Notes under the pieces: model-generated
Told to the model about the DNA's origin: nothing
Databases searched by the model: none
Seen by the model: only the letters and a program-made list of their open reading frames with translations
Origin: Crocinitomicaceae bacterium
GTDB lineage: Bacteria; Bacteroidota; Bacteroidia; Flavobacteriales_D; Sanyastnellaceae
DNA length: 64,000 nucleotides
Direction of reading: 5' to 3'
Assembly (NCBI GenBank): GCA_002722795.1
Contig: PBMY01000005.1
Location: forward strand, 1 to 64,000
Made by a program: the position numbers and the translations under genes
Shown: positions 54,365 to 57,570 of the stretch, piece by piece
Layout of the letters: each line of letters starts with the position of its first letter
How positions within the stretch are numbered: position 1 is the first letter of the stretch

Positions 54365-55159
54365 TTACACTCTAGAAGTGTAAAGTCCATTTACCCTGAG
54401 GTCTTCTGAATTGTATTCAATTCTCCGGTGTGTGTTGATGTCAAAAACATCAATTCCTACTGACCTTAAAATTGCATCACCTGCTGCACAATCCCACTCC
54501 ATATATGGACCAGTTCGAGAGTGAATTTCAGCCTTTCCCATAGCAATTTCGCAAAATTTCAGAGAGCCGCTTACAGGTCTGACAATTACGTCAGTTGATT
54601 TAATCCAAGGTGGACAAAGTTTGGATATGGGAGCATTTTCCATCCACGATGTTACAAGTGTATATGGCTTAGATGCGCTTGTACTTGAACTGAGATTTAT
54701 GGTTCGGGCATTTGCTCCATTCAATTGACTAATTGAAAACCCAATACTTGTAACCCCCTTGTAAATTGTGTTGGTCAATGGGTCTGCAACAACACCTAAA
54801 ATAGGCCCTGTTTTGTCGCAAAGAGCAATATTGACAGCAAAACCACTTCTGTTGTCTAAAAAGCTCTCCGTGCCATCTAGTGGATCTACGAGCCAATAGT
54901 ACTCCCACCCCTTTCTTTCATCGTAATTGGGAATAGATGCTTCTTCACTTAAAATAGGAATTGAAAGAGGGGCAAGAGCGGATGCAATTACTTTTTGAGA
55001 TGCATAATCTGCGTCAGAAACAAGTGAGCCATCTTTCTTGGATTCAATATTTAAATCTTCATCAGACGCTGCAATAACACTTAGAAGCTCTCTAGAAGCA
55101 GCGCCTGCAGCGGTCTCAGCAAATCGTGCACACTCTTCTAAAAATTTCTTACTCATCAT
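54365..55159 (-). CDS. cysQ: 3'(2'),5'-bisphosphate nucleotidase CysQ
   Basis: 264 residues of the inositol monophosphatase superfamily. Metal ligands: the Glu pair in ILSEEASIP (~72-73), the DPLDGTE motif at ~92-98 and WDCAAGDAILR at ~223. The variant WLVDPLDGTESF and size fit CysQ, which removes the 3' phosphate of PAP from sulfate assimilation; an inositol-phosphatase role cannot be excluded. Its stop abuts the rsgA stop. An ATG one codon downstream is equally possible. Confidence 0.83.
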   Translation of the reverse strand: MMSKKFLEECARFAETAAGAASRELLSVIAASDEDLNIESKKDGSLVSDADYASQKVIASALAPLSIPILSEEASIPNYDERKGWEYYWLVDPLDGTESFLDNRSGFAVNIALCDKTGPILGVVADPLTNTIYKGVTSIGFSISQLNGANARTINLSSSTSASKPYTLVTSWMENAPISKLCPPWIKSTDVIVRPVSGSLKFCEIAMGKAEIHSRTGPYMEWDCAAGDAILRSVGIDVFDINTHRRIEYNSEDLRVNGLYTSRV

Positions 55160-55182
55160 TTCACTAATATAACTACCTTTGC

Positions 55183-55258
55183 TCTGACGCAGGGGTGTCG
55201 CAAGACTGAGATCATACCCTTCGAACCTGCCTTTTTCGGGAAGGAAGTTGTCTAAGGA
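55183..55258 (+). promoter_or_regulatory. TPP riboswitch (THI box) upstream of TonB receptor
   Basis: Conserved core elements appear in the right order: GCAGGGGTG (55189-55197), a short GTC-GCAA-GAC hairpin, CTGAGATCATACCC (55206-55219), TTCGAACCTG, a CCTT/AAGG hairpin near 55230-55244, and a closing CTAAGGAA (55252-55259). GGGG pairs with the CCC of the second block, and CCTT at 55176-55179 with AAGG at 55254-55257. The CTGAGA element binds the pyrimidine ring of thiamine pyrophosphate in known TPP riboswitches. About 53 bp lead to the receptor's ATG. The expression platform is not obvious; GACGC (55186-55190) could pair with GCGTC (55286-55290). Confidence 0.88.
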
Positions 55259-55311
55259 ATAATGTGCCTCTTAAGGCTGCGCTCAGCGTCAAAAAATATA
55301 ATTTATTTCAA

Positions 55312-57570
55312 ATGCGACGTATTATACTATTCTCGCTTGTTTTAGCACCGTCTTTTATTCAAGCTCAAATCGATTCGATCAACCTCATTAAGCCTGCTGC
55401 AGTTCAAGCAGTTTCTTCTGAGGAGAGATCTCCTTTCGCACATACTAATATTTCAGAAGAAGATATTAGTAATAGGGACGCAGCTCAAGACCTACCATTC
55501 TTGATTCGTTTTGCTCCTTCTGTTATTGTTACATCTGACGCAGGTAACGGAATTGGATACACTAGTATGCGTCTAAGAGGTACTGATGCAACACGTATTA
55601 ACGTAACCATCAACGGAGTGCCATTAAATGACGCTGAGTCTATGGGAGTTTGGTGGGTTGACCTTCCAGATCTTGGAAGCAGTATTAGTGACCTTCAAAT
55701 TAACAGAGGTGTTGGAACAAGCACGAACGGCCCAAGTGCTTTTGGTGGATCTATTGCCATCAACACTCTAGGTAAAGTTGCTAAGCCATTAATCCAAGCA
55801 AAAGTTGGATACGGCTCTTTCAATTCAAGAAGAATGAATGGTTCTTGGAATACAGGAATCCTAGACAACGGGCTTTCATTTGACGGAAGAGTTTCTCAAA
55901 TCACCTCTGACGGATACATGAACAGAGCGACTTCTGATTTATTCTCGCTTTACGGTTCACTTGTGAAGAGATGGGAAACGGGTAAGATTAGCATTACAGC
56001 TACAAAAGGTGAGGAACGTACGTACCAATCATGGTATGGAGTCCCTGAAATTGCAACAGACCCAAATGCTGATTCAACAGCAATTGCTGATTGGGCAGCA
56101 TGGAGCTGGGAGTATAGTTATGGTGCTGACACAGCAAGGGTAAATGACCTTCAAGCTAATGGACGACAACATAATTACTACAGCTACGAGAACGAAGTTG
56201 ATGATTACACTCAGGACCATCAACAAATCCACCTCGAACAGAAAGTTGGAAACATTGACTTAGGTGTTTCATTATTCCAAACCCTAGGATCAGGTTACTA
56301 CGAGCAGCAAAGAATTGGAGATTCGTTTTCAGATTATGGCTTTGCAACAGATACGATTTTTGATGGCGGCGATACAATTGTGTCTTCTGATTTAATTCGT
56401 CGTAGATGGTTGGATAACACTTTAAAAGGCGGTTTAATTAATGCAAGCACAACTCTTGGAAACTTTGATTTAGACTTTGGTGGAATGTATTCTACATACG
56501 AAGGCGATCACTTTGGAAAAGTGATTTCTATGGATGTTGCTCATCCTGAATTCAATGAAGATTCGACTTACTACTTCTCTGTTGGTAACAAAACAGATCT
56601 AAGTGGTTACGCTAGACTTACTTGGATGGGTATGAAAGATAAGCTGAGAATTCAAGCTGAAGGCCAAATAAGAAATGTTAGCTATTCAACTATTGGTTTG
56701 GATTCAGACAGAAGAGAAATCAACATAAGTGAAGATTTTTCATTCTTTAATCCAAAGTTTGGTTTTGATTATAAGCCACACAACAACAGCAGATTCTACT
56801 CTTCTATAGCAATAGCAAATAGAGAGCCGTCTAGGAGCAACTATTTAGATTCTGATTACTTGATCTCAGATTCAGATTCATCGTCACACATTATCCCTGA
56901 AAAACTAACTGACATTGAGATTGGCTTTAGCTACACAAAAACAAATTTCGCTTTTGAAATTGGAGCATATCACATGGCATACGACAATCAGCTAGTGAAC
57001 ACTGGAACACTAAATGATGTAGGAGGGATAATACATAGAAACGTTGAGGAATCATACCGTCAAGGAATTGAAATACAGGTTGGGTTTAACCTTGGCGAGT
57101 CAATTACATGGCAGGGTAATACAACTCTATCTAAAAATAAAATTATTGACTTTGCTCAAGAAGGCACAAGTGTAGAGACTGACATTGCACTATCTCCATC
57201 TTTAATTGGTGCGAGCCTACTTACTCTTGATGTTTGGGATGGAGGTCAAGTGTTCTCAGATGATAATCTTGATTTAGATCTTGAATTCGCAACAAAATAT
57301 GTTGGAACGCAGTACCTAGATAATACTTCAAGTGATGATCGGACACTGCCGTCTTATATAGTTCACGACATTGTTTTAAGATGTGACTTTGAAGTAAACG
57401 AAAAGCAGTTTAATGTAAGTTTATTCGCAAACAACATTCTTAATCACATGTACAGCGCAAGTGGTTGGACTTACTACTACTCCCTTGATGATGGAAGCGA
57501 GGTTTCAGAAAACTACGTTTACCCTCAAGCGGGAAGAAACGGTTTTGCAAGCATGAGCGTTAAGTTCTAA
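55312..57570 (+). CDS. TonB-dependent outer-membrane receptor, predicted thiamine uptake
   Basis: 752 residues: signal peptide ~1-19 (MRRIILFSLVLAPSFIQAQ), a plug domain from about residue 40 to 170 (SMRLRGTDATRINVTINGVPLND, VGTSTNGPSAFGGSIAI), and a long 22-stranded barrel with the C-terminus ending aromatically (ASMSVKF). No N-terminal carboxypeptidase-like or signalling domain. The start chosen is ATG 55312 (the frame opens at a GTG 16 codons earlier). The TPP riboswitch just upstream predicts a thiamine or thiamine-precursor substrate, as proposed for THI-box receptors in Bacteroidota; the inference rests on the riboswitch, not on the protein itself. Confidence 0.88.
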   Translation: MRRIILFSLVLAPSFIQAQIDSINLIKPAAVQAVSSEERSPFAHTNISEEDISNRDAAQDLPFLIRFAPSVIVTSDAGNGIGYTSMRLRGTDATRINVTINGVPLNDAESMGVWWVDLPDLGSSISDLQINRGVGTSTNGPSAFGGSIAINTLGKVAKPLIQAKVGYGSFNSRRMNGSWNTGILDNGLSFDGRVSQITSDGYMNRATSDLFSLYGSLVKRWETGKISITATKGEERTYQSWYGVPEIATDPNADSTAIADWAAWSWEYSYGADTARVNDLQANGRQHNYYSYENEVDDYTQDHQQIHLEQKVGNIDLGVSLFQTLGSGYYEQQRIGDSFSDYGFATDTIFDGGDTIVSSDLIRRRWLDNTLKGGLINASTTLGNFDLDFGGMYSTYEGDHFGKVISMDVAHPEFNEDSTYYFSVGNKTDLSGYARLTWMGMKDKLRIQAEGQIRNVSYSTIGLDSDRREINISEDFSFFNPKFGFDYKPHNNSRFYSSIAIANREPSRSNYLDSDYLISDSDSSSHIIPEKLTDIEIGFSYTKTNFAFEIGAYHMAYDNQLVNTGTLNDVGGIIHRNVEESYRQGIEIQVGFNLGESITWQGNTTLSKNKIIDFAQEGTSVETDIALSPSLIGASLLTLDVWDGGQVFSDDNLDLDLEFATKYVGTQYLDNTSSDDRTLPSYIVHDIVLRCDFEVNEKQFNVSLFANNILNHMYSASGWTYYYSLDDGSEVSENYVYPQAGRNGFASMSVKF

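Follow-up and report, generated by a model that had tools for sequence, protein, structure and literature searches.

A predicted J4/5-less subclass of the TPP riboswitch, apparently overlooked, upstream of TonB-dependent receptor genes in Bacteroidota

Introduction

TPP riboswitches, among the most widespread riboswitch classes, are described as two-part sensors with an essential pyrophosphate half. The class is highly conserved at U39-A43, U59/A80, G60, C77 and G78; among G60, C77 and G78, only G78 touches the pyrophosphate directly (PMC3764141). Thiamine and TMP occupy just half of the bipartite site (PMC4775224). THI elements in front of outer-membrane receptors and of thiV were reported in 2007 (PMC2211319). 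A Bacteroides OMthi receptor, BT2390, was tested genetically in 2017: a biosynthesis mutant needs more thiamine once it is deleted, and its transcript did not respond to thiamine (PMC5613172). The P. ubique element has been catalogued as a regular TPP riboswitch (PMC2704228). In SAR11, ThiV probably transports HMP, and the ligand specificity of the riboswitch was said to need confirmation (PMC11452348).

Here we describe a THI-box leader found in a 64-kb stretch of DNA, called the window throughout. Its pairing with a receptor gene is of a kind already known; the aptamer is a new, apparently overlooked variant of the TPP riboswitch.

Results

The leader and its receptor gene

The window leader (55175-55320) carries the THI boxes in order within an element at 55185-55252, followed by the ATG (55312) of a TonB-dependent receptor with Plug and barrel domains (Table 1). 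Most of the 60 relatives sampled have a match to RF00059, the TPP riboswitch family of Rfam, shortly upstream of the orthologous receptor and on the same strand. The receptor orthologue is present in 54 of the 60, nearly always with the RNA element in front, and RF00059 matches were found in 57, above the gathering score in only 11. Being kept across relatives, the RNA-receptor pair must be old and under selection; it is real and conserved rather than a product of chance. An earlier note on this DNA had described such a leader, with a minimal P3, and both points held.

Table 1. Features of the window leader and flanking genes (positions in the window)
Feature	Positions	Strand	Basis or comment
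-7 promoter element TAnnTTTG (TACCTTTG)	55174-55181	+	sequence; transcription start at or near P1 5' strand
UGACGC, P1 5' strand, also 5' strand of anti-P1 helix	55185-55190	+	pairs with 55286-55291
THI boxes GCAGGGGTG; CTGAGATCATACCC; TTCGAACCTG	55189-55197; 55206-55219; 55220-55229	+	sequence
P2	55192-55195 with 55216-55219	+	canonical
P3, GTC-GCAA-GAC	55197-55206 (55197-55199 with 55204-55206, loop GCAA)	+	sequence; canonical
J3-2 UGAGA	55207-55211	+	positions equal U39-A43, conserved in the TPP class (PMC3764141)
P4 5' strand CCUG (C57, C58, U59, G60, thiM numbering)	55226-55229	+	
Shortened P5 hairpin CC(U)-UUUUC-(G)GG	55230-55240	+	first C:G pair replaces J4/5 loop; GUAAUG L5 lost
AAGG: A opposite G60 (G.A mismatch), then P4 3' strand AGG	55241-55244	+	canonical C77-G78 absent
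P1 3' strand, weak, about 4 bp with 55186-55189	55249-55252	+	sequence
GCGUCA, anti-P1 strand, about 20 nt before start codon	55286-55291	+	fold; complementary strand in relatives
TonB-dependent outer-membrane receptor, 752 aa, OMthi-type	55312-57570	+	PF07715 Plug, PF00593 barrel
CysQ/inositol-monophosphatase-like gene, divergent, outside the unit	54365-55159	-	PF00459, TIGR01331

A B12 (BtuB) or haem receptor was also considered. The NCBIfam matches for these lie far below their cut-offs, no cobalamin riboswitch was found in the window with Rfam at gathering, and the receptor has no PDB chain match by sequence; both readings were rejected on these grounds. Considering the THI leader and the thiamine auxotrophy of the genus (see below), it is plausible that the receptor imports thiamine.

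The window leader lacks the pyrophosphate-reading junction

RF00059 matches the window leader at 55181-55264 with 30.2 bits (E 2.9e-4 in 301 bases, at a relaxed threshold), and no Rfam family reaches its gathering threshold anywhere in the 64-kb window. The earlier note, which called the element a TPP riboswitch, had named the lack of an RF00059 hit above the gathering score as a refutation; the hit, though better than chance, does stay below that score (54.3 bits), because the pyrophosphate-reading J4/5 is missing from this element and from the whole subclass described here. In the alignment P2, P3, UGAGA, ACCC and GAACCUG fit, and the misfit is in the P4/P5 half. The aminopyrimidine-binding half (P2/P3/UGAGA, 55192-55219) is intact. 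Thus the THI-box origin claimed in that note stands, whereas TPP as the ligand becomes an assumption, since J4/5 is absent throughout the subclass.

When a model was built from 50 variant leaders of relatives, with the sequences of the window and of its two nearest relatives left out, the window leader scored 50.4 bits (E 9e-12). It is the sole significant TPP-like match in its 1.74-Mb, 83%-complete genome and conforms to the variant pattern, CCUG-C..G-AAGG, at 55226-55244. Its spacing is CCTG-N11-AAGG, as against CCTG-N18-WAGG with CG in canonical aptamers and CCTG-N16-AAGG in most variants. G60 is kept; C77 and G78 are replaced by paired sequence. The UNA-type L5 loop, which docks into P3, is absent from the window and its two nearest relatives (G008, G012) and kept in most other variants; affinity in the window may be low for this reason.

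Two discrete kinds of aptamer

The leaders of relatives fall into two discrete kinds with no continuum between them. Canonical ones read CCUG-AU-P5-CG-UAGG, with 18 nt between CCUG and WAGG; variants read CCUG-X-P5-X'-AAGG, with 16 nt and no CG. In the canonical set (n=41), A61:G78 occurs in 41/41 and U62:C77 in 38/41. In the variant set (n=130), X and X' form a Watson-Crick pair in 108 (GC 55, AT 26, CG 22, TA 5), compared with an average of 43 over 10,000 shuffles, none of which exceeded 62; kinship alone can beat shuffles and slides, the pair types nonetheless changing many times. The base opposite G60 is A in 123/130, in a set partly picked by a pattern that fixes AAGG and leaves X and X' free; the 60 relatives were picked without this pattern. 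In 50 aligned variants, 99% of cells are paired under the named structure, pair 61:76 being GC in 22, CG in 11 and AU in 9, plus wobbles, and RNAalifold proposes the same continuous P4-P5 helix unprompted. Variants keep G60, U59-A80 and, mostly, L5.

The two models separate the kinds even within one genome. There, the canonical copy before thiC (L258) scores 74.2 bits with RF00059 versus 46.8 with the variant model, and the variant copy before the receptor (L257) 34.1 versus 79.7. Most variants fall under the RF00059 gathering threshold. A tree of 86 receptors needs 8 changes of aptamer type, at least 3 of them forced by well-supported branches, as against 20.5 in shuffles, and its deep branches are occupied by canonical aptamers. 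We conclude from these comparisons that the J4/5-less group is a widespread and coherent subclass, evidently derived from the TPP riboswitch, in which the pocket is predicted to have become a continuous helix with a conserved G.A mismatch.

Distribution and gene context

At least 119 matches to the exact variant pattern were found in species genomes, and 23 of 296 evenly sampled Bacteroidota genomes carry it. Flavobacteriaceae, Saprospiraceae, Marinilabiliaceae and Porphyromonadaceae, with others, are among the matches listed; a form with 14 nt occurs in Pelagibacteraceae. Among the loci collected, variants precede 118 receptor genes, two ThiC genes and five others, including ThiM and TenA, and canonical aptamers precede 23 receptor genes, 15 ThiC genes and three others. 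Six Flavobacterium-type genomes (G263, G227, G125, G084, G211, G239) have a canonical aptamer before thiC and a variant before the receptor; in G020 the canonical one precedes thiM and the variant again the receptor.

Several loci depart from the common arrangement. Variants stand before thiC (L130, L189), thiM (L218) and tenA (L240) in Marinilabiliales and Bacteroidales-type genomes. At two loci, from Anaerophaga and a Bacteroidia MAG, a canonical-type and a J4/5-less aptamer lie in tandem before a single TonB receptor (L190, minus strand, 220 nt apart; L211, 156 nt). In G055:C21 (L057, L091), some 1.5 kb farther upstream than the receptor's own element, a second canonical TPP-like element precedes a gene for a small PnuC-like membrane protein. 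Contigs titled Klebsiella pneumoniae MAG (L222) and Thermoanaerobaculia MAG (L175) carry a Bacteroidota-type receptor and riboswitch, and are probably mis-binned or mislabelled.

The SAR11 leaders (L132, L138, L143, L149 and other Pelagibacteraceae) read CCUG-N14-AAGG, have no J4/5 and form X:X' as A:U or U:A. The thiV leader reaches 64.5 bits under the variant model, compared with 48.8 under RF00059. All 18 of the 18 downstream proteins are symporter-like, one being confirmed as a sodium:solute symporter by Pfam.

Promoter and expression platform

The window leader is preceded by TAnnTTTG, which we take to be the Bacteroidota-type -7 promoter motif; no sigma-70 promoter was found there. Of 173 related leaders, 126 have TAnnTTTG no more than 40 nt upstream of GGGG, versus 5 after shuffling, the typical distance being 12 nt. 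With this element just ahead of the aptamer, the mRNA probably starts in P1.

In the ligand-free fold of the window leader, UGACGC pairs with GCGUCA with probability 0.82-0.96, and the fold with this anti-P1 helix reaches -31.9 kcal/mol versus -27.7 for the aptamer fold. Relatives repeatedly have, usually some 25 nt ahead of the start codon, a strand that can pair with the 5' strand of P1/P2, the two covarying by lineage (AAAGGGG/CCCCUUU, CAAUGGGG/CCUCAUUG, GACGCAGGGG/CUCCUGUGUC). A competing helix is found at p<=0.05 in 66 of 151 leaders versus about 8 expected; the window's own helix, taken alone, has p 0.1. The competing strand was not seen in SAR11 leaders. As the earlier note had it, no standard, intrinsic terminator was found after the window aptamer. 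The conserved competing helix together with the lack of a terminator suggests a translational OFF switch, both its direction and its translational level being inferred. The freed anti-P1 strand might also pair with codons 2-4 (GCGUC/GACGU). The window, G008 and G012 allow this, but it is not genus-wide and is weak in the fold, so we make no such claim.

Thiamine physiology of the genus

ThiC was not found in the family members sampled, including 14 members of the genus, and ThiE in none of these 14; the genus therefore needs imported thiamine or its phosphates. This gene content lends support to the thiamine-related import suggested in the earlier note. The same note had seen a stand-alone unit, which is right for the neighbourhood (RsgA, CysQ-like, alpha/beta hydrolase and CarB-like genes) and not for the genome: the search for pnuT and thi genes that it proposed yielded a PnuC/PnuT-type transporter gene (PF04973) on another contig (C2:19804-20313), beside an AAA_28 kinase-like gene. 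The transporter is present in 14/14 genus members. In a Flavobacterium-type relative (L257) the transporter-kinase pair directly adjoins the receptor.

Pairs of PnuC/PnuT-type and AAA_28 (NadR-like) kinase genes were seen at G000:C2:19281-20364 (L279:2782-3865), L281:3413-4541 and L257:3190-5885. In Flavobacterium the AAA_28 kinase forms a fusion with DUF4301, and the two genes adjoin the variant riboswitch and receptor.

Thiamine pyrophosphokinase (PF04263, TIGR01378) gave no confident match in any relative; both models match in Bacteroides. Since this enzyme was not detected in those relatives, the AAA_28 kinase could be the thiamine kinase that is otherwise missing.

Discussion

Established at the level of sequence are the missing J4/5, the covarying pair that replaces it, and the conservation of both the gene pairing and the competing helix. 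Building on them, we propose that the window leader senses an imported thiamine vitamer (thiamine or TMP) with no canonical reading of the diphosphate, a proposal to which we give an even chance. More broadly, many Bacteroidota may have given up the diphosphate sensor and come to sense free thiamine or TMP for outer-membrane B1 uptake, apart from biosynthesis, and SAR11 may govern its HMP uptake through a related form; this wider picture is tentative, and we would put it at somewhat under an even chance.

In the proposed mechanism, the T-loop-like J3-2 would still grip the aminopyrimidine, the pyrophosphate pocket now being a continuous P4-P5 helix with a G.A mismatch. Without ligand, the P1/P2 5' strand would pair with the strand lying some 20-25 nt ahead of the start codon, and the AU-rich start region would be open. 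Bound ligand would stabilise the aptamer and free the anti-P1 strand, which could then mask the start region; a plentiful vitamer would repress the outer-membrane thiamine receptor.

The strongest competitor is that the variant is still a TPP riboswitch, with J4/5 more plastic than assumed and the phosphates contacted in another way, for example through Mg2+ at the G.A step, perhaps at lower affinity. TPP is the only ligand that fits every gene context (receptor, thiC, thiM, tenA and SAR11 thiV), and the few variants before thiC, thiM or tenA, where TPP feedback is the usual logic, speak against an altered ligand. G60, U59-A80 and mostly L5 are retained, a new phosphate site could involve the near-invariant A opposite G60, and both aptamer types precede orthologous receptors in sister lineages, with some 8 changes on the receptor tree. 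Against this stands the uniform loss of C77, G78 and the internal-loop width in the variant, where the canonical class retains all three throughout. Genomes that have both aptamers assign each to a different gene, and at two loci a single gene is preceded by the two in tandem. We consider TPP sensing a real possibility but a doubtful one; thiamine or TMP is slightly favoured over TPP bound another way.

SAR11 cannot use thiamine (PMC11452348), so that a single ligand for all variants would have to be TPP or HMP-like. In a further reading, the variant would sense a pyrimidine (HMP or a related degradation product) and control precursor uptake, in agreement with the retained half being the HMP-binding half and with the position of the SAR11 element before the HMP transporter ThiV (PMC11452348). 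This reading is nevertheless unlikely, as the window genus, having neither ThiE nor ThiC, could not make thiamine from HMP, and free HMP would be a poor signal there. Simple decay into a non-functional riboswitch in the window species, to which the lost L5 (GUAAUG is gone from G008 and G012 too), the shortened P5 and the lowest RF00059 scores of the genus (30.2 bits; G008 30.9) might point, is more improbable still: P5 has been rebuilt with different complementary sequences in the three species (CC/GG, CUC/GAG or UUCCC/GGGGA), a maintained helix that argues against decay, and the X:X' pair, G.A step, J3-2 and anti-P1 helix are all kept.

A large, coherent subclass without the pyrophosphate half sits under the TPP riboswitch name, mostly below the Rfam threshold, and the compound it senses is directly testable. 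This bears on the control of B1 or precursor uptake in marine and gut Bacteroidota and in SAR11; if the thiamine or TMP reading is correct, a related variant form would control HMP uptake in SAR11, among the most abundant bacterial groups. It also bears on automatic annotation, which labels all such RNAs TPP riboswitches, and may bear on the B. thetaiotaomicron transport-operon transcripts that stayed unchanged with thiamine (PMC5613172), if the aptamer there is the variant. The literature covered, incomplete so that earlier notice is possible, contains no mention of a missing J4/5, and the accessible parts of a 2020 review of variant classes (PMC7266159) and of PMC6478431 list no TPP-derived variant.

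Comparison with known systems

With the TPP riboswitch (RF00059) the subclass shares P2, P3, the UGAGA J3-2, P4 with U59-A80 and G60, the order of boxes and the thiamine gene context. It differs in J4/5 (A61-U62 / C77-G78), where a base pair and a G.A mismatch stand instead, the window leader being also devoid of L5. OMthi of B. thetaiotaomicron (BT2390; PMC5613172) is likewise a TonB-dependent receptor behind a THI element in Bacteroidota; the likeness is one of receptor kind and THI element. The SAR11 thiV leader (PMC2704228, PMC11452348) also has no J4/5 but differs in its shorter P5, in a start codon only 3-5 nt after the aptamer and in preceding a sodium:solute symporter gene. The HMP-PP riboswitch (thiS motif) senses a thiamine-pathway compound too, yet through an unrelated, small, terminator-embedded aptamer (PMC6478431). 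A parallel in kind is offered by the known variant classes (2'-dG, adenine, FMN variants, c-AMP-GMP and ykkC subtypes; PMC7266159, PMC6478431), which keep the parent scaffold with an altered pocket and often an altered ligand.
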